DNA from: Sphingobacteriales bacterium
Lineage (GTDB): Bacteria; Bacteroidota; Bacteroidia; Sphingobacteriales; Sphingobacteriaceae
Assembly (NCBI GenBank): GCA_025353765.1
Contig: JANXOD010000024.1
Location: forward strand, 1-64,000
DNA: 64,000 nt
Direction: 5' to 3'
Program-made: the position numbers and the translations under genes
Part shown: in pieces, positions 1 to 54,456 of the stretch
How positions within the stretch are numbered: the stretch's first letter is position 1
Layout of the letters: every line of letters starts with the position of its first letter
Notes under the pieces: model-generated
Told to the model about the DNA's origin: nothing
The model's database searches: none
Seen by the model: only the letters and a program-made list of their open reading frames with translations

Positions 1-1394
1 CGGTACCACCAGATGCATTTGTTCATTCACCAACTTGGTATTATCGGCCTTGGTTAATTCCTTGTTATAAGTTAGGGGCCCTTTTGGAAATGCTTTATCT
101 TCAGAAATCTCTATCACCCATTTATTTTCATAATTAGGGTACATAATTTCTTTCTCCATGCCAATCGGCCAGGGATTTTTCAGGGCACCCTCATTTTCAG
201 GAATTGAGCTAAGCAGCTGGGCAGCCGCCGGACCCAGGCCAATTGCGAAAAAGGCATCCTGAACAGAGTGTAATTCTAAGGAATTAGCACCAAATTGAGC
301 TTTAGCAGCCTGTTCAGCAGCCTCCCGAAAATTTACCCAAGTTGTAGCTTCACCATATGGAGGTAAAAACTCAGTCATGATCCGCCATAGAATTTGCTCG
401 GCATGATTCACTCCAATACCTGCTACACTAAATAAAGACTTTGATTTATCTTGATCTATATGGCCCGAATCTCCAATAGACAAAAGATACAACCAGTAGG
501 GAATAAGAGTAGAATTTTTATGTACCTCCTTGCCTGACTGATCATAATTGGTGCCTTTGTAAGTAGTGGGATAGCCGGAAGTCTTTATGGAAACAGGGCT
601 ACTTGCATCATAATAAATTTTATTTTGTGAACCTTTAAACGTCCAATCGAAAATATAAACAGCGTTGGGGTCTGTTCGTTACTTTTTTGGAAGTTCTGTT
701 GCAAATAAAAATTTTTAGCCAATATTCCGAATGCGTCACCTATTGACTCATGAATATATCCAAGCTCACAATCGCCCTTATACGGCAATCCACGGTATGC
801 CAGTATTTGATGTGTAGTTTCATGGCCTGCTATCTCTAAAGTATAGGCTTGATGCTTTTGATTAAAATGAATACGAGTATTACCCAGAGATATATTAGAT
901 ATACCGCTTGTAGCAGCTTCTCCATCATTCATTCCATTTCCTGCTATGCGTAACGTAAGTGTTTCAGTAGGTATATTGCTAAGGCCAGCGTAACTAAGAC
1001 CTGTAGTAATAATACTTAAATTATGATAGTACTCCAGCACTTTGCAAGTGGTCCAATATGCAGTAACGCCTTCTTCTCCATTAATTACATAATCATTGAT
1101 GATATATGGACCATTGCCACTATTTATTTTGTCATAAAACAAATAGTCGTCACCAGAAGTAGCCGGGTAATTAAGACAAAAACGGGTTTCTATTTTAGGT
1201 ATTGAGTTTGGATTTTGAGGGTCCCGCACATTTTTAAGATAGTATTTGCCATTATCAACATCATGGTATACTTGCACGTCCTGATCATCATAATACAGAG
1301 TATGTAATTTTCGGGTAATCATTTGTGCCTTTATAGCTGATATTGGCACCAAGGCCATAATGAATAGCCAAATACATAAAAATTTATTCATCAT
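1..1394 (-). pseudogene. Secreted M4 (thermolysin-family) metallopeptidase, frameshifted and cut by the window edge
   Basis: The reading frame opens at 1394 with a signal peptide (cleavage near AIKAQ) and carries the zinc site HETTH at about residues 191-195 and the third-ligand motif ESIGD at about 216-220, both diagnostic of M4 peptidases. Near 660-670 the frame is lost: as read it runs on to a stop at 585. The homologous continuation (NAVYIFDWTFKG, later GVNHAEQILWR and the helical C-terminal domain) lies in another frame and stays open to the left edge. One extra C in the CCCC run (GGGG at 667-670 on the plus strand) would rejoin the two. There is no FTP/PepSY propeptide between signal peptide and catalytic domain, which is unusual for secreted M4 enzymes. 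The C-terminus lies outside the window. Either a true pseudogene or a base-calling error. Confidence 0.8.
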
Positions 1395-1735
1395 TTTAAT
1401 TTAATAAAGTATTCCATTTTGTAATAAAAACTGTTCCATTTAATAAATAAAGCATCAGCAAAATAAATCAACAATGATAATAATACTTTAAAATTAGCTG
1501 TAAAAATTATTGACTTGAAATTCTTTTATTCTGATCAACCATAATACTTTATGCTCGAGACCTAATAGATTCGTCTATTTATTTATCAGAATACCCTGAA
1601 AAAGAAAAAGCCCTAATTCTATTAGAATTAAGACTTCATATTTCATATAATTTCCCCATTTGGGAACGGAATAGGGTTTCTTGGTAAATTAGATAAAAAT
1701 ATACTTTCAATTGAAAGTATATTTATTATCAATAG
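1395..1735. other. Intergenic region between the M4 gene and the surface operon
   Basis: This AT-rich gap of 341 bases holds no convincing gene. It contains the palindrome listed separately at 1697-1724. Around 1609-1675 there is a second inverted-repeat area: AATTCTATTAGAATT on the plus strand, and AACCCTA pairing over a long loop with TAGGG followed by CTTTTTC on the minus strand. The latter could be a back-up terminator for the operon to its right. The promoter of the M4 gene should lie near 1400-1440, but I see no clear TAnnTTTG box. Confidence 0.5.
1690..1724 (-). terminator. Rho-independent terminator of the surface operon (28-bp perfect palindrome)
   Basis: Positions 1697-1724 form a perfect 28-bp palindrome centred on TTTCAATTGAAA. 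On the minus strand the hairpin is followed by TTTTATC, and it starts 12 bases after the stop codon at 1736. It therefore fits an intrinsic terminator for the four-gene minus-strand operon. Confidence 0.75.
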
Positions 1736-3748
1736 CTAAAACCGCTTTTTAACTTCTTGCTTTGCCATAGTTATGATAGTAGGAGGTGATTTTAATACTG
1801 GAGGAACTTTTGTTACCTTAAATTCAGTACGACGGTTTAACTGATGTTCTAATTTAGTGCATTCGACACCATCTTTACAGTTATTCAGTAATTCTGTTTC
1901 ACCAAGTCCTAAAGCAGATAATCGTGAAGGTTCTATTCCCCCTGTTTTTAAATACCCGACAGCAGAATTGGCTCTTTTTTGAGACAACCATAAATTATAT
2001 TTAGCCGCTCCGCGAGAGTCTGTATGAGAACGCAATTGTACCGTTACATTAGGTGTAGCGTTCATAAAAACAATTACTTTATTTAATTCGGGCATGGCAT
2101 CCTCACGGATATCCCATTTATTAAAATTATAGTAAATGTCATTTAAATGCACCAGGTAAGCATCTTGTGCTTTCTCTAATTCAAACGTAACATTAAATAC
2201 AGTAGATTCTTTTACATCTTTGGTTGATATTTGGCCTTCTTGCTTAGAATAAAATTTTGCAGAATCGCCTCTTAGGAAATAATCTGTATTTTCTTCCAGT
2301 TCAAAGTGAAATTTCCCTGTATCATCAGAAAGTACCGAGATCTCTTTTCCTGTAGTCTTATTAACCAGGTATACCAATATATTATTGATGGGTAAGTTTG
2401 TGCCTTTGTCCAGCACATGCCCATTTATAGCCAGACTGAGTGGCTGCTTCTCTATCTTTTTAACAGTATTTATAGTAAACCGGTAAATATCATCGAGTCC
2501 CTTCCCTCCTTTACGATTAGATGAAATAAAACCCGACTGTTCGTTTAGAAATAAAATGCCGAAATCATCTTTTGTAGAGTTTAAAGGGCTTTTCAAATTC
2601 TCTGCAACAGCAAAATCAGTATAACTTCCTTTTGCTGAAAAAATATCCAATCCACCCATTCCTATATGCCCTTTTGAGGAGAAATAGAGCTGGCCATCAG
2701 ACCGAACTGATGGAAACACTTCGTCTTCTGTTGTATTCACATTTTCACCGCAGTTTTTTGGTGCTCCCCAAGTACCATCTGCTTGCTTACGCGATGCGTA
2801 AAGATCCATTCCTCCATATCCTCCGGGCATATCTGATGAGAAATACATGATTGTTCCATCAGGGGAGAGTGTAGCATGTTGTACAGAGTAGCTTCCGGTT
2901 GTATTAAAGGGTACTATTTGGGGTTCTCCCCAATCTGCACCAGTTTTAACTGAGTAATAGATGAACTTTCTGGCCTGTTTCTTTTTATCAATATCTATAC
3001 GTGTAAAATACATCCCATTCCCATCGGGAGTAAACACTGCAGGACCATTATGGAATTCGTTATTAATAAGTTTAGGTAGTACCGTTATTTTAGGTGAAGC
3101 CGAATTAAGCGTATCGGCTTCATATAATTTTAGATAAGGATTACCTGTCCAGCCGGACATTTCCTTTTTTTTACCGGTTTCCGTTCCCTGTACATATAAT
3201 CTGTCTGATACAAATACATACCCCGAATTATATTTTACAGGGCAAAAATCAGAATATGAAGAATTTAATAGCAGTTCATTTTCTATACGCACATTGGCAT
3301 CCGGATTTTCTACCCAAACACGGGCAACATCACAGGTGTTTGCCATCTTCTGTGCTTCTTCTGCCTTATTGGGAACAATTTGGGCATATAGCAGGTAGTT
3401 TCTTTTAGCTTCATCAAATTTTCCATTTTCTTTTAGAACATCCGCATAATATTTGTAGTTATTAACATCACAATCTTTAAAAGAAAGTACCCTTTCATAG
3501 GCTTTTTCAGCTAAGTCGGAATTATTTATAAAACGATAACAATTGGCTAATTTTTGTGCAACCTCTAATGAAGGTTTTTTAAGCATGATTTTTTCATAGA
3601 TCACAATCGCATATTTGTAGTCATACTTTTCGTAATATCTATTTGCCTTATCAATACTGTCGGAAAAGATATTTTGAGGCATAAAATATATAAACAAACA
3701 AACTAATAAGGCTAATCCGTTTTTTTGATAATGACTCATTTTTAGCAT
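1736..3748 (-). CDS. PorE-like OmpA-family protein (TPR, beta-propeller, carboxypeptidase-regulatory domain, OmpA_C)
   Basis: A 670-residue secreted protein with a hydrophobic N-terminus (about 10-30). TPR-like helices follow at about 31-150. PD40/WD40-like blades (FTPDGNGMYFTR, LSPDGTIMYFSSD, VRSDGQLYFSSKG) lie at about 165-430. Next come a carboxypeptidase-regulatory-like beta-sandwich at about 440-540 and a C-terminal OmpA domain with YNFNKWDIR and SHTDSRGAAKYNLWLSQKRA, the peptidoglycan-binding signature. This domain order matches PorE, the T9SS component that anchors PorP-associated machinery to peptidoglycan in Porphyromonas. The start is the first ATG (3748); the ATG at 3739 is an alternative. 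It is last in the operon, 10 bases after the PorP/SprF gene. Its role here, linking the outer-membrane protein to the cell wall, is inferred from that family and from context. Confidence 0.85.
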   Translation of the reverse strand: MLKMSHYQKNGLALLVCLFIYFMPQNIFSDSIDKANRYYEKYDYKYAIVIYEKIMLKKPSLEVAQKLANCYRFINNSDLAEKAYERVLSFKDCDVNNYKYYADVLKENGKFDEAKRNYLLYAQIVPNKAEEAQKMANTCDVARVWVENPDANVRIENELLLNSSYSDFCPVKYNSGYVFVSDRLYVQGTETGKKKEMSGWTGNPYLKLYEADTLNSASPKITVLPKLINNEFHNGPAVFTPDGNGMYFTRIDIDKKKQARKFIYYSVKTGADWGEPQIVPFNTTGSYSVQHATLSPDGTIMYFSSDMPGGYGGMDLYASRKQADGTWGAPKNCGENVNTTEDEVFPSVRSDGQLYFSSKGHIGMGGLDIFSAKGSYTDFAVAENLKSPLNSTKDDFGILFLNEQSGFISSNRKGGKGLDDIYRFTINTVKKIEKQPLSLAINGHVLDKGTNLPINNILVYLVNKTTGKEISVLSDDTGKFHFELEENTDYFLRGDSAKFYSKQEGQISTKDVKESTVFNVTFELEKAQDAYLVHLNDIYYNFNKWDIREDAMPELNKVIVFMNATPNVTVQLRSHTDSRGAAKYNLWLSQKRANSAVGYLKTGGIEPSRLSALGLGETELLNNCKDGVECTKLEHQLNRRTEFKVTKVPPVLKSPPTIITMAKQEVKKRF

Positions 3749-3758
3749 ACTTATACAT

Positions 3759-4742
3759 TTAAAAATACCTTGGGGTAGGTAAAGAAATGGTTTTTTTCTT
3801 TGTCTTTAATACTACACCTAATGATATTTCATGTGTTCCATTAGAATAATCACCCAATGAAGATAACAAATAATCATAAGAATAACCCAAACGGAATTTC
3901 TTTGCAACAAACATCTCTACTGTTCCAATCAGGGAGTTTTGTTTAATTAATCCCTTATTAAAATCTGTTTTTTTCAGGAAGTTAAGCCCTGTTCTGTATG
4001 ATGCTCCTAGCCAAACTGTTTCTTTTATTAAAAAAAATGAACTAAAATCAATGTCAGTAGGACTTTTAGCAGCTTCTCTAACCATTATAGAGGGCTTATA
4101 TTTGACATTTTGTGTAAGATCGATCAAATAACCTGCTGTGAAGAAAAACTGTTTCTCCTGCTTTATCATTTGATCTACTCCGGCCTGATGGTAATCCAAT
4201 GTTGGTGCAAGCAAATTGATGACAGATGCACTTGCATAAAGTTTTTTATTGCTGAAATACAATCCAAATTTTGCATCCGGAGTAAAATAAACTTGTTTCC
4301 CTTCATTAAAATTGGGATCATCCGGATTATCAATATGAGCCTGGTTTTCGTCAAGGGTATATTGAGCCATACCCACTGCAAGGCCAAATGCTAAACGGTC
4401 ATCATTTGCTCCAACCTTTATACGATAGGAATAATTAACATATGCGGATGTATGTCCTTGTAATCCTATCTTATCATTCACAATGGCTAAACCCAAACCT
4501 ACTTTTGGATTATTAAAAAAAATACCATCAGCAATGATAGATTGTGTTTTAGGAGCGCCCTGCAAGCCCACCCATTGGTCACGATTTAGTAGACTTATGT
4601 TAAGCTCTCCTTTGTAACCAGCGTAAGCCGGGTTTATAACCAAAGTATTAAACATATACTGGCTATATTGTGCCTCTTGCTGTGCTATAGCATATAACTT
4701 AAGCATAAAAATAAATATGAATGTGAGAAGAACTGTTTTCAT
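3759..4742 (-). CDS. PorP/SprF family type IX secretion outer-membrane protein
   Basis: This 327-residue protein has a signal peptide ending near AIAQQ, followed by the family hallmark QYSQYMFNTLVINPAYAG and then alternating beta-strands of an outer-membrane barrel (LLNRDQWVGLQGAPKTQS, VGLGLAIVNDKIGLQG). PorP/SprF proteins serve as outer-membrane partners for T9SS cargo with type B C-terminal domains, as with SprB and SprF of Flavobacterium johnsoniae. The gene starts one base after the stop of the type B cargo gene and is followed by a PorE-like gene, so a dedicated attachment or export role for its upstream neighbours is likely. Length is normal for the family. Confidence 0.92.
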   Translation of the reverse strand: MKTVLLTFIFIFMLKLYAIAQQEAQYSQYMFNTLVINPAYAGYKGELNISLLNRDQWVGLQGAPKTQSIIADGIFFNNPKVGLGLAIVNDKIGLQGHTSAYVNYSYRIKVGANDDRLAFGLAVGMAQYTLDENQAHIDNPDDPNFNEGKQVYFTPDAKFGLYFSNKKLYASASVINLLAPTLDYHQAGVDQMIKQEKQFFFTAGYLIDLTQNVKYKPSIMVREAAKSPTDIDFSSFFLIKETVWLGASYRTGLNFLKKTDFNKGLIKQNSLIGTVEMFVAKKFRLGYSYDYLLSSLGDYSNGTHEISLGVVLKTKKKTISLPTPRYF

Positions 4743-4743
4743 A

Positions 4744-5952
4744 TTAGTCTTTCTTTAACATCGTAATAAACCCTTTATATACTTTTGGAGCTCCGCTTAT
4801 ATTGACCTTTAAAACATAAAAATAAGTACCCGAATTCATATTCGTTCCATTCCATGCATTATTTAAATTATAGCCCTTTGCCTTAAATACTTCATCACCC
4901 CAACGATTAAATATCCTTAGTTCATTATCGGGAAATAAGTCTATGTTCTTAATAACCCATGTATCATTTTTTCCGTCACCATCTGGCGAGAACCCGTTAA
5001 AAAATGTAAGCGGATCATTTACTGATGCAGATGTGGCAAATGTTACAGGCAGATTTTTTAATACATCCAGAGATTTAAATAATAGTGTACGGTTTAAACC
5101 ATCGCCATAAATACCATCAGAAACGGTGGATGGTGCTGCTTTTTCCCATAAGTTTGAAGAATTATTCCAATTCACTAATTGAGTAAAAGTATCTTCTCCT
5201 GAAGTCTGCTGGTAAAATTTAGCATTGATAGTAGAAGAACCACTTTCCTGGTTTAGGATATAGTAATATTGATCGAAAACAAGATCAATATCCTCTCTTT
5301 TATTAGTTGTATTATATCCTGAATTCGATGGACTTTCATCTAAAAAAGTAATGGCAAAATTATTTATATCAGAATTTAAAGGCTCCACAGATACAGGACG
5401 ATAAAGCGGACTCGCAGATAATGAGGATCCTAAAGGAAATACATAAGGATCTGTATTATTGGTATTACGAATTAATTTCCCTTTTTGGTCTGTGCTTACA
5501 AAACCTGTACTTCGGAAAATAGCATCATTTAAAGGATTTAAAACAGATATAGTGTATTGATCAGCTTTTAATTCCTTATCATTCAGAAACAATTTTTGTG
5601 TAACATCAATATCTGCTGTTAAGGTTTTGTTTCCGTTACCCGATAGATTTAAATCAGAAAATGTCGTTTTATTTGATCCTCCAATATGTTGGTTGCCTCC
5701 TGTTAAATCAGTTAAGCCAACGGAGCGACTGTCAAACACAGTTGAACCAGGATCATTATTAAACCAATCGCCCTGGATAGTTATTTTGCCCTTATTGAAT
5801 ACATTACCGGCTATGTGCTTATAATCACCCGATACAAAAACAACCGCATTATTATCAATAAATATTTTCTCGCCGGTATTTGCCAGCTGCGCCTTCGCTG
5901 TGCTTAAAAAACATCCAGAAAGACTAATTATAAATAGTGCTCTTTTTAACAT
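4744..5952 (-). CDS. Secreted protein with gliding-motility-type (CHU_C, type B) T9SS sorting domain
   Basis: This 402-residue protein has a signal peptide (cleavage near AKAQ). Its N-terminal and middle part is beta-rich with many Asn, Gly and Ser residues and matches no enzyme I know. The last 85 or so residues are a type B C-terminal domain: FFNGFSPDGDGKNDTWVIKN, then LRIFNRWGDEVFKAKGY, then GTYFYVLKV. Proteins with this domain are exported by T9SS and held at the surface by PorP/SprF-like partners, the next gene downstream. It lies 3 bases after the collagen-like gene and one base before porP/sprF, so co-translation is likely. Plausible roles are an adhesin or an assembly factor for the collagen-like protein; its function is not otherwise readable. 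Confidence 0.85.
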   Translation of the reverse strand: MLKRALFIISLSGCFLSTAKAQLANTGEKIFIDNNAVVFVSGDYKHIAGNVFNKGKITIQGDWFNNDPGSTVFDSRSVGLTDLTGGNQHIGGSNKTTFSDLNLSGNGNKTLTADIDVTQKLFLNDKELKADQYTISVLNPLNDAIFRSTGFVSTDQKGKLIRNTNNTDPYVFPLGSSLSASPLYRPVSVEPLNSDINNFAITFLDESPSNSGYNTTNKREDIDLVFDQYYYILNQESGSSTINAKFYQQTSGEDTFTQLVNWNNSSNLWEKAAPSTVSDGIYGDGLNRTLLFKSLDVLKNLPVTFATSASVNDPLTFFNGFSPDGDGKNDTWVIKNIDLFPDNELRIFNRWGDEVFKAKGYNLNNAWNGTNMNSGTYFYVLKVNISGAPKVYKGFITMLKKD

Positions 5953-5955
5953 GGT

Positions 5956-7773
5956 CTATTGAATTACTGTAATAAAATAATTCATAGACACCATATCAAT
6001 AGGCGCCCCACTCACATTGGTAAACTTCACCTCAACAGTACTTGCTACTGATATTCTTGAGTAAGCTATAATTAGTCCATCTGTTAATGCTATGGCTGGA
6101 TTTATTGTTACAGATGAACCCACTACAGCATTAGAAACTGCAAAATTCTGTATAAATGAAGCTCCGGATGCTATCAAGGGAAGATCTATATTATTAGCAG
6201 TACCTTTAATTATATTGTTAAGTAAGCTACCATTTGATCCAAATTTGAATGTACCTTTCACCTCTAATTTAGCAGTGGGAAGAATGGTACCTATACCAAT
6301 ATTACCTCCTGTCGTAATTCGCATACGCTCATTGTTATTAGCCGCTAACACAAAGTCAAAATTATTTCGAGTTCCTATAAAATCAGCAGAACCAATATCA
6401 TTTCCATTTGTTAGCCATACATTATTAGGTGTAGGCCCAACAGGACCTTTGATATTACCTGTTTTTACCCAGGCTCCGGATTGTTTTTCATAAACATCAC
6501 CTGTAAAAACATCTAAATAAAAATCGCCATCAACTCCTGAACTGGGATCTGGAGCTCCACTATTTGAGGTTAATGCTGCTCCGTTTATACCCGGGTCACC
6601 TTGTACACCCTGATCTCCTTTATCGCCCTTAACTCCCTGTATACCCTGTGGTCCAATCGGACCAGTAGATCCCTGAGGGCCAGTCGCTCCGGTTAAGCCT
6701 TGAGAGCCAGTCGCTCCGGTTAAGCCTTGAGGACCTATAGGACCAGTGGAACCTTGAGGGCCAGTTGCTCCGGTTAATCCTTGAGAACCTGTAGGGCCAG
6801 TCAATCCCTGAGGGCCTATCGGACCAGTAGAGCCTTGGGGGCCAGTTGCTCCAGTTAATCCTTGAGAGCCAGTTGCTCCGGTTAATCCCTGAGAGCCAGT
6901 CGGACCAATAGGACCTTGAGGACCAGTTGCTCCAGTTAAACCAATCGGGCCGGTAGAACCGGTTAAGCCTTGTGGGCCAGAGGGGCCGGCAGAGCCTTGT
7001 GGGCCGGTTAATCCTATCGGGCCAGTTGCACCCGTTAAGCCTTGAGGGCCTATTGGACCGGCAGAACCTTGGGGGCCTGTTGCACCCGTTAAACCTATCG
7101 GACCAGTTGCACCTGTTAAGCCTTGGGGGCCTATCGGACCAGCAGAACCTTGAGGGCCTGTTAATCCAATATCACCCTGGTCACCTTTATCACCTTTTAT
7201 TCCCTGTATACCCTGTGGACCTATAGGACCAGTTAAGCCAATATCTCCTTGGTCTCCTTTTATTCCCTGTATGCCCTGTGGACCTATCGGACCAGTCAAA
7301 CCTATCGGACCGCTTAAGCCGATATCACCTTGGTCTCCTTTTATTCCCTGTATACCTTGTGGACCTATCGGACCAGTTAATCCAATCGGACCAGTTAATC
7401 CGATATTACCCTGTATTCCTTGGGGACCCATAGCTCCGTTAGATACATCATACCATTTATCATTCAGCCAGAAGTTAAACCGGTTAGCATCTGTATTATA
7501 AATAAGCATTCCGTTAATAGCTGTATTTGTTGTTCCATCGGTTTCAATTTGAGCATCACGTTGAGCTTGTGTTAGTCGCGGAATTAAAATTCCCTTAGAA
7601 ATAGAGGAAATATCAAGAATAGCTTTTGTATTAGGAGTTTCTGTTCCAATTCCAACAGATCCATTTTGAGCTAAAAGCTGAGTTTTAAAACTAAATAGGA
7701 GAAAAACTAGCAATGTGGAAAACTTAATCCAATTGCTTTTTAATTGTATGATTTGTAGTAAATATCTGTTCAT
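5956..7773 (-). CDS. Collagen-like (Gly-X-Y) repeat surface protein
   Basis: A 605-residue protein with a signal peptide (cleavage near LLAQ). An N-terminal segment of a type common in Bacteroidota surface proteins ([33 protein letters not shown]) follows. Residues about 113-395 are a nearly unbroken run of some 90 Gly-X-Y triplets built from [29 protein letters not shown] and similar blocks. The C-terminal 200 residues hold a linker ([19 protein letters not shown]), [17 protein letters not shown] and a small beta domain. There is no type B or type A sorting domain, so surface attachment may depend on the neighbouring gene products. Bacterial collagen-like stretches form triple helices; trimerisation here is inferred. 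It is first gene of the operon. Start at 7773 chosen because it gives an intact signal peptide. Confidence 0.9.
6590..7436 (-). repeat. DNA repeat tract encoding the collagen-like region
   Basis: About 850 bp made of imperfect 9-, 18- and 27-base units, all multiples of 9 and so in frame, encoding Gly-X-Y triplets. Blocks such as the one encoding [17 protein letters not shown] recur several times at 7160-7430, and [19 protein letters not shown] recurs at 6640-6850. The tract is prone to slippage and unequal recombination, so repeat number may vary between strains. Long open frames on the plus strand here are shadows of the repeat. Confidence 0.85.
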
Positions 7774-7783
7774 ATTGTTGATA

Positions 7784-7832
7784 TTACGGTAAAATAATAA
7801 TCAATTTAAGCATTTTTCCTTAAAGGAAAATG
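7784..7832 (-). promoter_or_regulatory. Leader inverted repeat and 9-codon upstream ORF of the collagen-like operon
   Basis: Positions 7814-7830 are a perfect inverted repeat (TTTTCCTT, one central base, AAGGAAAA), about 40 bases upstream of the start codon at 7773. On the minus strand it is immediately followed by an ATG (7813-7811) that opens a tiny frame, MLKLIIILP, stopping at 7784, 10 bases before the gene. It could be an operator or a translated leader. No clear TAnnTTTG box was found nearby. Confidence 0.3.
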
Positions 7833-7980
7833 TTTTTATTTAATTATAATCTCTGGTTTTTACGCGAAGTAAAGTATATTGTTACAAGTTATTAACATCT
7901 GGCACTTACTAATTTATACTAACACTCCTAGTATTTAAACTACAATAACTAATTTAGCAGCCTCGAATAATTCAAAAATT

Positions 7981-8826: not shown

Positions 8827-10536
8827 GTGAAGTTCAGCTTCCATAACTTTCTCAAAAGAGTAATTTTAGATTACTTATTACTAATTACCTGTTTTACTAT
8901 TTGTGATGCTCAAAATATGCCTCCTATTAAAGAAAAATCAATCCCATTTCAAAATAAAGATCAAAAATGGGGCTATATAAATGCATTAACACATCAGGTA
9001 GTCATCCAACCAAAATATGATGATGCAGGTTTATTTGAAAATGGTGTGGCATGTGTAGCTAATCTCAATAAAGGCAAAGGAAATAATGCAGAAGCCGATT
9101 TTTTATATGGGTATATAAACAGTAATGGTCAGGAATTATTTCCTCCGGTTTATGATGGTAAATATGAGGTAAAAACAAAATCTGGAAAGCCATTGGAAGA
9201 TTTAATCTCTTTTACCAAAAATGGGCAGACTGGAATTGCAAAAAAGAATGGCGAATGGATGTTTCCATTAGGGATGTACTCCAATTTTATTTTTTTTGAT
9301 TCGAATCATGTAGTTTGTAACCAGACTGATTTTTATGCAAATGGGATTAAATATCAGGCACTTAAAGGTTATACAATTTTTGATATAGATATAGAAAACG
9401 GATTATTCTATATACGTAAAGATGAATTAAGCAACGGAATATGTAAATGGACGGGTGAAATAATCATACCTGCCAGGTATATGGAAATAAAGTATCATAA
9501 AATATATAACAGGTTTGTTGCCGAAAAAAGCACATTGAAATTAAGCCCCAAAATGAGTGTAGATCAAATATCGAATGTCATGCTAAAGGCTGAAGAAAAG
9601 GGCTTAGACAGGATAGAAACAACTTTATTTGACAAAAAAGGATCTCAATTAGGGATTTATAGATCCATATACAGTTTAGACATTCAGGATAGTATGCTTT
9701 TTATCCTAAGTAAAGGGAAGGAAAGGTACATTAACATGGTTACTGGAAAGGAAATACTGAAACCAGATGGAAAATCTTCCATACTTGTAAACAATATAAC
9801 ACAATTACACTCCTCCATTTTTATAAAAGATGGGAAATATGGGCTGACTAATATTAAAGGCGATATTACCATACAGCCTATCTATAGTGATTTATCTCCT
9901 GCAAGTGAAGAATTATATACTGCAGCTAATGAAAAGGGATATGGTTTGATCGATGATAAAGGCAAAATAATCATCCCATTACAGTATCAAACTATTTTTG
10001 ATACAAAGCAATTAAATAAAACAAAAGAAACCTATTATCAGGTACAAAAAGATGATAAATGGGGCTTGATGGATAAGCACGGTAAACTCATTATTCCTAT
10101 CCAATATGGGTATGTTTCTATTGATTCAACTGATTTGGATAAAGGCTGGGTAAAAGTAGAAGATGAGCCACGAGCTAAAAATGGTGCAGTCAATATCATC
10201 ACCCATAAAAGTATTTCTATACTATATGATTTAATTATATTTCATGATGATTTAATTGAGGCAGCAATTTATCATCATGATAAGTATAATTATCAATTAT
10301 TAAACCAAGAAGGCAATCCTGTTTCTTCCGAAATTTATACATCTTTAAACTCTACGAATAACCATTTTATAGCTGAAAAAGATAATAAATACGGATTATT
10401 GGATAAGCAGGGAAAAGAAATATTAACATTTAAATACCAATACCTATCATTTAGATCAGCAGATTTATTGTTAGCTACAACTAATAATATGAAATTATAT
10501 GTGGATATAAATGGAACAGAATATATTGCAAAATAA
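8827..10536 (+). CDS. Secreted WG-repeat protein inserted between the transketolase halves
   Basis: A 569-residue protein with an apparent GTG start directly abutting the TAA of the transketolase N-half, so translation is probably coupled. A signal peptide (residues 1-29, ending TICDAQ) is followed by about nine WG-type repeats of the form K-W/Y-G-L-x-D-x-x-G-K-x-I-I-P-x-x-Y, for example KWGYINALTHQVVIQPKYDD, KYGLTNIKGDITIQPIYSD and KWGLMDKHGKLIIPIQYGY. WG repeats are thought to form a beta-propeller-like or solenoid fold for binding, with no known catalytic role. A periplasmic or surface protein is an unexpected partner for a cytosolic transketolase. Function unknown. Confidence 0.85.
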   Translation: MKFSFHNFLKRVILDYLLLITCFTICDAQNMPPIKEKSIPFQNKDQKWGYINALTHQVVIQPKYDDAGLFENGVACVANLNKGKGNNAEADFLYGYINSNGQELFPPVYDGKYEVKTKSGKPLEDLISFTKNGQTGIAKKNGEWMFPLGMYSNFIFFDSNHVVCNQTDFYANGIKYQALKGYTIFDIDIENGLFYIRKDELSNGICKWTGEIIIPARYMEIKYHKIYNRFVAEKSTLKLSPKMSVDQISNVMLKAEEKGLDRIETTLFDKKGSQLGIYRSIYSLDIQDSMLFILSKGKERYINMVTGKEILKPDGKSSILVNNITQLHSSIFIKDGKYGLTNIKGDITIQPIYSDLSPASEELYTAANEKGYGLIDDKGKIIIPLQYQTIFDTKQLNKTKETYYQVQKDDKWGLMDKHGKLIIPIQYGYVSIDSTDLDKGWVKVEDEPRAKNGAVNIITHKSISILYDLIIFHDDLIEAAIYHHDKYNYQLLNQEGNPVSSEIYTSLNSTNNHFIAEKDNKYGLLDKQGKEILTFKYQYLSFRSADLLLATTNNMKLYVDINGTEYIAK

Positions 10537-17721: not shown

Positions 17722-18022
17722 GCTTTTTACTTTTTTTCCATTGCTGCTATTAGTCCAATCATTTTGTCTTTCTATTTTTTACTGTCGTGTCGTCTTTTAA
17801 GCTGCCTCATAACTCCTAAATATACGCAACAAACATTCGTATATCCACCCAAAATGAATAGTATCTGTGAATATTTATTTCGCCTAATCTCAAGTATATC
17901 AATTAAAATCGCTTTGCTGACTGAAGAACGTCCCTCATCTCTGAAGCTTTCTTTAATGTGTCTAAGCTATTCGCTTTTTATCCTTTAACACACTTGTATG
18001 AACGCCGCCTTAAAATATACCG
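17722..18022. other. No convincing gene between the broken regulator and the 84-bp repeat
   Basis: A plus-strand frame of 94 codons (17704-17988) overlaps the regulator and has an unlikely Ser/Leu/Ile-rich composition. On the minus strand, 64 codons are open before a TAG at 17749-17747, ending MRQLKRRHDSKK, without a good start or a recognisable family. This looks like decayed sequence. Confidence 0.3.
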
Positions 18023-18253
18023 ACAGATGAAAAAAATAGGGTGCCGCCTGTCAAAAATACCCTAGCAGATGAAAAAAATAGGTCAACAGCATCAATAAAT
18101 ACAAGGACAGATTGAGAAAATAGAATGCCATCTATTAAAAATAGACCAACAAGTGAAAAAAACAGGTTAATAGCATTAGTAAATACAATGACAGATGAAG
18201 AAAAGAGAGCACCACCTGCCAAAAATACCCTGGCATCATTAAAAAATACAATG
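18023..18253. repeat. 84-bp imperfect tandem repeat, about 2.75 copies
   Basis: Copies lie at 18023-18106, 18107-18190 and 18191-18253; the last lacks an internal 21 bases. A partial fourth start (ACAGATGAAGAT) follows at 18254. Each copy has two related halves of about 42-45 bases, each with a GATGAAAAAAATAGG-like and an AAAAATAC-like block. The unit is a multiple of 3. In one plus frame it reads TDEKNRVPPVKNTLADEKNR and variants, with a TGA in copy 2 at 18113-18115. On the minus strand a 95-codon hydrophobic frame (18297-18010) is fully open. Which strand, if any, is translated is unclear. Confidence 0.7.
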
Positions 18254-54159: not shown

Positions 54160-54257
54160 AATCTAATTTATTAGGGATTTGCAATTTCTAACACAGACCA
54201 AATCATCCATATTATATTCATTTAGGAATTTATATACCTGCCCTGTGAACGCTTCTG

Positions 54258-54456
54258 CAAAAGTTTGCAATACCATCCTGCACACTGCAGTGCCTATATG
54301 CAAAAGTTGACAGTACCATTCTGCACACTGCAGTGCCTATATGCAAAAGTTGACAATACCATTCTGCACACTGCAGTGCCTATATGTAAAAGTTGACAAT
54401 ACCATCCTGCACACTGCAGTGCCTACCTTTCAACTTTGGAAGTATCATTCTGCATG
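54258..54456. repeat. 43-bp tandem repeat (minisatellite) with a palindromic core, four copies plus a partial
   Basis: Full copies lie at 54258-54300, 54301-54343, 54344-54386 and 54387-54429, and a degenerate partial at 54430-54456. Copies differ at only a few bases. Each contains the perfect 10-bp palindrome CACTGCAGTG (at 54283, 54326, 54369 and 54412) inside CTGCACACTGCAGTGCC, and a conserved AAAAGTTGACAATACC block. Period 43 bp is close to four helical turns, so cores face the same side of the DNA. The array lies between the stop of the CDGSH gene (54481) and the permease start (54159), about 100 bases upstream of the latter. Confidence 0.92.

Follow-up and report, generated by a model that had tools for sequence, protein, structure and literature searches.

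Introduction

Proteins with a type B sorting domain for the type IX secretion system (T9SS) need a PorP/SprF partner for their secretion, and in Flavobacterium johnsoniae five operons combine such a substrate with a PorP and a PorE gene (PMC12618676; this and the other papers are cited here from excerpts of their text). The substrate of one of the operons with a PorE-like neighbour, Fjoh_3952, was observed to be static (PMC12618676). In Porphyromonas gingivalis PorE, PorP and PG1035 form a complex (PMC9143113); the same paper counts six porP-like genes that adjoin porE-like genes. Here we describe a four-gene operon from a Sphingobacteriales bacterium (assembly GCA_025353765.1, contig JANXOD010000024.1, positions 1 to 64,000; this stretch of 64,000 nucleotides is called the window below). 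Its genes 2 to 4 encode a type B substrate, a PorP/SprF outer-membrane protein and a PorE-like protein, and they are preceded by gene 1, which encodes a protein with a predicted signal peptide and a long Gly-X-Y run. The genome of the window comprises 2.83 Mb on 44 contigs and is 99.79% complete.

What is new in this operon is its first gene: a conserved, tail-fibre-like partner without a recognised sorting signal and with an optional collagen stalk, whose link to relatives of gene 2 recurs in other families. An earlier sequence-only reading of the window had seen a self-contained surface-fibre module in the addition of a collagen-like first gene and a PorE-like last gene to the known SprB/SprF-type pairs, and had suggested that the second gene product could anchor the collagen-like protein. 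The novelty has to be narrowed to the conserved signal-less first gene, since operons of substrate, PorP and PorE-like genes were already published (PMC12618676).

Results

The operon and its conservation

The four open reading frames lie on the minus strand with gaps of 3, 1 and 10 bases, exactly the layout given in the sequence-only reading. The operon, its parts and its borders are as follows.

5956 to 7773, minus strand: gene 1, collagen-like, tail-fibre-like protein of 605 residues (open reading frame and Pfam)
7438 to 7665, minus strand: gene 1 N-terminal domain, residues 37-112 (GIGT...), after the signal peptide; defined by alignment, present as well next to substrate relatives from other families
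6574 to 7437, minus strand: gene 1 Gly-X-Y run, residues 113-400, 96 uninterrupted triplets; not in 9 of 26 orthologues
5959 to 6216, minus strand: gene 1 C-terminal head, residues 520-605, a predicted beta-sandwich like phage tailspike and tail-fibre tips (AlphaFold2 and fold matches)
4744 to 5952, minus strand: gene 2, type B T9SS substrate of 402 residues (PF13585 and TIGR04131)
5464 to 5895, minus strand: N-terminal region of gene 2 (residues 20-163), probably a beta-helix (predicted model and fold match)
4762 to 5007, minus strand: gene 2 type B C-terminal domain, residues 316-397 (PF13585 and TIGR04131 above cut-off)
3759 to 4742, minus strand: gene 3, PorP/SprF outer-membrane protein of 327 residues (PorP_SprF and TIGR03519)
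1736 to 3748, minus strand: gene 4, PorE-like protein of 670 residues with TPR-like, PD40, CarboxypepD_reg-like and OmpA parts; below the PorE and CHU_0125 cut-offs
1692 to 1730, minus strand: AT-rich hairpin behind gene 4, probably a terminator (-15.0 kcal/mol, z -5.9)
7774 to 7980, no strand: divergent control region common to gene 1 and the gene for the transketolase N-half (159-228 bases in 26 of 26 loci)

Among 300 genomes of the order, gene 2 has 26 full-length orthologues, one per genome and each at 228 bits or more. Two paralogues are not counted, one (233 bits) from the genome of the window and one (224 bits) from genome G113, where it belongs to a different type of locus. A profile of the gene 1 C-terminal part scores above 120 bits at 26 places, which lie in the same 26 genomes and all directly upstream of gene 2. 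The next place scores 67 bits, and some match at E <= 1e-5 is present in 38 of the 300 genomes. The 26 carriers span five genera (g1, g3, g6, g9 and g17) and include Hufsiella arboris, Pedobacter chitinilyticus, Pedobacter sp. ASV17, Nubsella zeaxanthinifaciens and the metagenome-assembled genome Pedobacter sp. UBA4863. Genes 1 and 2 are separated by -4 to +9 bases in every one of these loci, PorP follows gene 2 in all of them and a PorE-like gene is present in 25; in one locus (L039) a run of unknown bases splits the first gene. The operon is always divergent from the same transketolase N-half gene, at a distance of 159-228 bases. The conserved order of the four families that the sequence-only reading had proposed to look for is thus found, with an unchanged arrangement of all four genes at 25 of the 26 loci, and the lack of conservation that it had named as counter-evidence was not observed.

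Related arrangements occur elsewhere in the genus. A second module in the window's own genome (L092, G000:C27, 2920-14161) has two genes of 1227 and 864 residues with weak matches to the N- and C-terminal domains and no collagen, together with a substrate (35% identity), a PorP gene and a PorE-like gene of 793 residues. Four further genomes from the same genus as the window (L198, L201, L206, L209) have, after PorP, a long gene that matches the N-terminal domain and the head weakly; three of them also have a type B gene (20-25 bits) ahead of PorP.

Gene 1: end domains and collagen stalk

In the window the first gene is a Gly-X-Y repeat protein, as had been read from its letters: Pfam Collagen (PF01391) scores 151 bits (cut-off 27.2), the 96 uninterrupted triplets are encoded by DNA repeats of 27/81 bases, and all five collagen matches of the genome fall in this open reading frame. 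By textbook geometry a collagen triple helix of 96 triplets would be about 80 nm long. The NCBIfam models for the collagen-like proteins Lcl and Scl reach 170, 160 and 140 bits against gene 1, below their cut-offs of 500, 325 and 400. As the hallmark of the module's first gene, however, collagen does not survive the comparison of orthologues and is ruled out as its defining feature: 17 of the 26 have 36-522 residues in Gly-X-Y runs, eight have none and one has 15. The nine stalkless proteins measure only 238-263 residues, with little between the N- and C-terminal parts, and keep both end domains. They form one clade, whose sister L093, from the same genus, has a stalk (midpoint-rooted tree of the proteins of genes 2 to 4, 25 loci, no support values), and because of this the pattern is consistent with a single loss of the stalk. 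The conserved parts of gene 1 are its N-terminal domain and a C-terminal tip resembling a phage tail-fibre head.

At the N-terminus a glutamine (position 36) is invariant in 26 of 26 orthologues, and the predicted signal peptide probably ends before QNGS. Glutamine after signal-peptide cleavage is described as a rule for Bacteroidota (PMC5837995, excerpt). The phage tail-fibre family PHROG 30742 matches the N-terminal part weakly, in 18 of 26 members (best E value 7e-7; window protein 0.046), and a Pfam dUTPase match occurs in four of the 26 N-terminal parts (best 0.043). Besides collagen and this dUTPase match, a Pfam scan of the 26 N- and C-terminal parts gave weak matches only, in single members.

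The last 86 residues fold as a beta-sandwich in an AlphaFold2 prediction run on six sequences, with predicted local distance difference test values (pLDDT) mostly above 90. Viral models match this head in 28 cases at E <= 0.001, most of them uncharacterised phage proteins, and three do so at a root-mean-square deviation (rmsd) of 1.3 over 84-85 columns with 26-33% identity. In a second structural comparison, against solved structures, a Klebsiella phage depolymerase (6tku) came first with a Z score of 8.5 (rmsd 2.6, 83 residues), which is modest, as best Z scores of 7-8 are common for models without a clear match; the viral models are for this reason the stronger evidence. Behind 6tku follow other phage tailspikes and the R1 pyocin fibre (Z 5.8; the group about 6), then snail agglutinin and dUTPases (Z about 5.5). 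By fold the modelled head appears to resemble the tips of phage tail fibres and tailspikes. In the part preceding the head, the window protein matches PHROG 9942 at 3.6e-7, and five of the 26 members match phage tail-fibre families; a PDB sequence search with the gene 1 C-terminal profile returned only E values of 1.4 and 3. Phage tail-fibre and tailspike folds are trimeric.

A sorting domain of type A or B is absent from the Pfam and NCBIfam hits of the window protein and of the 26 C-terminal parts, in agreement with the earlier claim that the first gene has none of its own.

Genes 2 to 4: substrate, barrel and putative anchor

Gene 2 carries the type B sorting domain that had been assigned to it (TIGR04131, 47.5 bits, cut-off 35; CHU_C PF13585, 87.6 bits, cut-off 27). 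Its glutamine Q22 is invariant in 26 of 26 orthologues and the predicted signal peptide probably ends before QLAN, so that, judged from sequence, cleavage would expose an N-terminal glutamine, in line with the Bacteroidota rule (PMC5837995, excerpt). Block means of pLDDT in its AlphaFold2 model are 77-90 up to residue 120 and 54-77 thereafter. Residues 20-163 form a probable beta-helix, matching pectate lyase 4z06 at Z 8.1 (rmsd 3.7, 134 residues), and residues 314-399 resemble the C-terminal domain of a T9SS substrate (8glk_D, Z 8.6, 75 residues; block pLDDT 47-77); both Z scores are subject to the caution given for the head.

Gene 3, one base from the type B gene, is the PorP/SprF partner that had been proposed, with 253.4 bits to PorP_SprF (cut-off 22.3) and 258.7 to TIGR03519 (cut-off 90.55). 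For gene 4, which had been called PorE-like, the assignment holds at that level. PD40 (53.6 bits) and the peptidoglycan-binding OmpA domain (53.2 bits) are both above cut-off in one protein, and the TPR and CarboxypepD_reg-like matches are below. The curated PorE model gives 396.1 bits (cut-off 600) and CHU_0125 441.7 (cut-off 620), and since both stay below their cut-offs we call the protein PorE-like only. It is the best of 17 places matched by the PorE model in this genome, none of which is above cut-off. A SprA gene is present in the genome.

The partnership outside the family

In a class-level search a substrate match at E <= 1e-35 occurred in 104 of 395 genomes, many of them to the N-terminal part only. 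Among the matches listed, 27 outside the family are near-full-length relatives (from residue 48 or earlier to residue 370 or later), and all of these were examined. The gene 1 N-terminal domain, at 47 bits or more to its profile, is found in the gene run of 11 of the 27, before or after the substrate (L286-L290, L302-L305, L308, L309). These 11 fall in four other families (f10, f16, f20, f21), and eight of the neighbours have collagen runs. In Chitinophagaceae bacterium DXS the order is substrate, PorP, PorE-like gene, collagen-like gene. A comparison set of 74 loci (L121-L194), matched mostly through the type B domain of other substrates, contains the N-terminal domain in three cases, at 32-43 bits; one of the 74 (L122) is a substrate relative itself, with no such neighbour in its cut contig. 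In a further family, f43 (L294-L300, L306), the substrate relative has no PorP match and adjoins a gene of 574-713 residues without recognised N-terminal domain, possibly a different partner.

The question can also be approached from the collagen genes. At 64 collagen-gene places, which are the best-scoring matches listed and not a random draw, a type B gene lies within 6 kb on the same strand in 26, a PorP gene within 6 kb in 22 and a PorE-like gene within 8 kb in 13. The chance expectation, estimated from 0 to at least 15 PorP matches per genome, is roughly 2%; relatedness is uncorrected in both figures. Five places (L102, L210, L220, L229, L233) have no called collagen open reading frame and so count as negative, among them three (L102, L210, L233) whose stretch does hold type B, PorP and PorE-like genes.

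At nine of the 64 (L040, L041, L042, L218, L219, L225, L228, L232, L253), the collagen-like gene is accompanied by a type B protein of only 167-182 residues and by a divergent PorP of 292-316 residues; no PorE-like gene was found on these stretches. The small proteins consist of a signal peptide, some 60 residues and the sorting domain, a composition that reads as more adaptor than adhesin. Another recurrent context (L212, L216, L221, L222, L223, L231, L239, L252) places a collagen-run gene of 216-310 residues beside a gene of about 975-1010 residues, with no PorP or PorE-like genes on the stretch.

Borders and surroundings of the operon

The probable terminator lies directly 3' of the gene 4 stop with a U-rich stretch behind it, and a second hairpin follows at 1607-1637. 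The strong terminator announced in the sequence-only reading stands as a hairpin by fold and position. It is not among the sites of a consensus terminator scan of the region, and terminator-like sites are no commoner there than in shuffles (4 found, 7.1 expected), which is why the description as strong is based on fold and position. On the upstream side, 14 of the 26 loci have the motif TAnnTTTG, which we take to be the -7 element of Bacteroidota, in the 200 bases before gene 1; shuffles give 5.0. It sits at -71 to -80 in all nine loci of one clade and is not in the window itself; as a start element of the operon it is suggestive only. For a hairpin in the window's upstream region, no common structure was seen by eye among the 26 folds.

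Beyond the terminator, an open reading frame of 269 residues (585-1394, minus strand) has a thermolysin-like match (PF01447, 17.4 bits) under the cut-off of 22.4 and is perhaps a truncated peptidase. On the other side the split transketolase has its two halves parted by a gene for a WG-repeat protein (8827-10536, plus strand, 569 residues, GTG start). In 25 of 25 other loci the halves are separated by 13-167 bases and the WG-repeat gene is not found. Tandem DNA repeats elsewhere in the window lie at 54256-54425 (four copies of 43 bases, 94% match) and at 18022-18228 (2.5 copies of 84 bases).

Discussion

We favour, with moderate confidence, the reading that the operon makes a static surface adhesin, in which a gene 1 fibre is seated through gene 2 as adaptor and tethered by PorP and the PorE-like protein. 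Gene 1 would reach the periplasm by means of the signal peptide read from its sequence and would trimerise into a fibre composed of the N-terminal domain, a collagen triple-helix spacer and a phage-tail-fibre-type head, which may bind a ligand, perhaps a glycan. Lacking a recognised sorting signal, the fibre would cross the outer membrane with gene 2 or be captured outside by it, gene 2 being the adaptor that seats it. The gene 3 barrel would collect its type B substrate and keep it at the surface, as published for other pairs, and the PorE-like protein would link the barrel to peptidoglycan, as proposed for P. gingivalis. In such a device the collagen stalk would be dispensable and variable in length, and the end domains and the tether would be retained. 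In support, the C-terminal part of gene 1 and the gene 2 orthologue share one set of 26 carriers among the 300 genomes, where they are always adjacent at short gaps and beside the same transketolase gene. The reading is further supported by the single clade of the stalkless proteins, by the gene 1-like neighbours of 11 of the 27 outside relatives against three in the 74 comparison loci, by the gene order in DXS, by the type B and PorP genes near collagen places, by the phage-like head, by the presence of SprA, and by the published complex and static substrate.

Several observations weigh against this reading. That gene 1 arrives at the surface, and through gene 2, we infer; contact, export and surface exposure of gene 1 are what the reading predicts. 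One of the 26 loci (L088) has no PorE-like gene. Outside the family, 16 of the 27 substrate relatives, some on cut contigs, have no gene 1-like neighbour at comparable score; seven of these together with L306 make up the family f43. No type B gene lies within 6 kb on the same strand at 38 of the 64 collagen places, so that a wider rule assigning this order's collagen genes to T9SS tethers is rejected. On the structural side, Foldseek found no match at E <= 0.001 to solved structures for either the head or the gene 2 model, the Z score of the head is modest as said above, and the gene 2 model is weak (mean pLDDT 58). Finally, distance correlations corrected by the flanking transketolase as species control (mirror-tree, 24 of the 26 loci, with L039 and L088 left out) are 0.52-0.54 between gene 1 and PorP and only 0.11-0.12 between gene 1 and gene 2. 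Without one genus the values become 0.59-0.63 and 0.53-0.58. In neither set does gene 2 come out ahead of PorP as docking site. Because the contrast shifts with the clade taken, we did not use the mirror-tree as evidence for either partner of gene 1.

The same correlation would speak for a docking of gene 1 on the PorP barrel or the PorE-like protein, with gene 2 as a second surface subunit or a mere guide, and so would the loci L198, L201, L041 and L042, in which a tail-fibre-like or collagen gene comes after PorP with no PorE-like gene between. Yet besides its dependence on the clade chosen, the argument meets the difficulty that PorP is very divergent in the 11 relatives with a gene 1-like neighbour (12-44 bits in ten, none found in one), and we regard this docking as quite improbable. 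It is unlikely, if a little less so, that gene 1 is itself a T9SS substrate with an unrecognised signal in its last domain or internally, gene 2 being a separate adhesin that shares the operon. For ChiA a signal of neither type A nor type B, named type C, has been published (PMC10202324, excerpt). The gene 1 C-terminal domain is, moreover, kept in 26 of 26 orthologues. This last domain, however, matches phage proteins, no signal model of types A and B, the two types covered, hits any of the 26 C-terminal parts, and the T9SS substrate domains that the structural comparison found for gene 2 are not among the matches listed for gene 1.

Gene 1 might also stay in the periplasm or be released, with only regulation in common with genes 2 to 4, as beyond its signal peptide no export signal is recognised. 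The one-to-one linkage in 26 of 26 loci and the link in four other families make this very unlikely, and so does the length of the collagen rod, which at about 80 nm is longer than the periplasm is wide. The PHROG 9942 match before the head and the viral models of the head might point to a recent capture of gene 1 from a phage, next to a type B operon of the usual kind. Yet the gene is old, its neighbours being the same in all 26 genomes, which span five genera. When viral contigs were scanned for patterns from the C-terminal alignment, 73 pattern matches but no relative by tblastn came up. We reject recent capture as extremely unlikely. For the domains of gene 1 and the phage fibres a distant common origin is likely.

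Extending the adhesin reading beyond this operon, one may tentatively imagine a piggyback route of the T9SS: a dedicated type B adaptor would carry the sorting signal for a signal-less tail-fibre-like trimer and, bound to it, bring it across the outer membrane or seat it there. The type B proteins of 167-182 residues beside collagen-like genes would be such adaptors in stripped-down form, and in many Bacteroidota the passengers, tail-fibre-like and interchangeable, would share a single kind of T9SS tether. We consider this generalisation doubtful for the moment. Among the open-access papers listed by our searches, none joins a collagen-like gene with PorP/SprF. One of them (PMC12560110) contains the terms collagen-like, Bacteroidetes and type IX secretion, but its excerpted text only cites a title in the references and notes that a T9SS is absent.

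If many type B proteins do serve as adaptors for signal-less fibres, lists of T9SS-displayed proteins predicted from sorting signals would be incomplete, and surface fibres of Bacteroidota with phage-like heads would become predictable from gene order. The clade without collagen stalk but with head and tether offers a natural test of the role of the stalk.

Comparison with known systems

Lcl of Legionella and Scl1 and Scl2 of Streptococcus have a long Gly-X-Y region beside non-collagen end domains. Gene 1 is similar to them in architecture, with model scores below the cut-offs and the best-matching stretches in the Gly-X-Y region. With phage tail fibres and tailspikes (such as the KP32gp38 depolymerase, 6tku) and with R-type pyocin fibres it shares the fold of the head at the Z scores of 8.5 and 5.8 given above; unlike these, it has a predicted signal peptide and stands in an operon with T9SS genes.

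The closest relatives of genes 2 to 4 are Fjoh_3950-3952 of F. johnsoniae and PorE-PorP-PG1035 of P. gingivalis, which likewise consist of a type B domain, a cognate barrel and a PorE-like anchor. Those systems are reported to be static or to form a complex, and the excerpted texts on them (PMC12618676, PMC9143113) mention no signal-less tail-fibre-like first gene with optional collagen stalk. The SprB/SprF gliding pair of F. johnsoniae also places a type B substrate beside its own PorP/SprF. SprB, however, moves and, in the published excerpts, has no PorE-like gene beside it, whereas the operon described here is accompanied by one in 25 of 26 loci.

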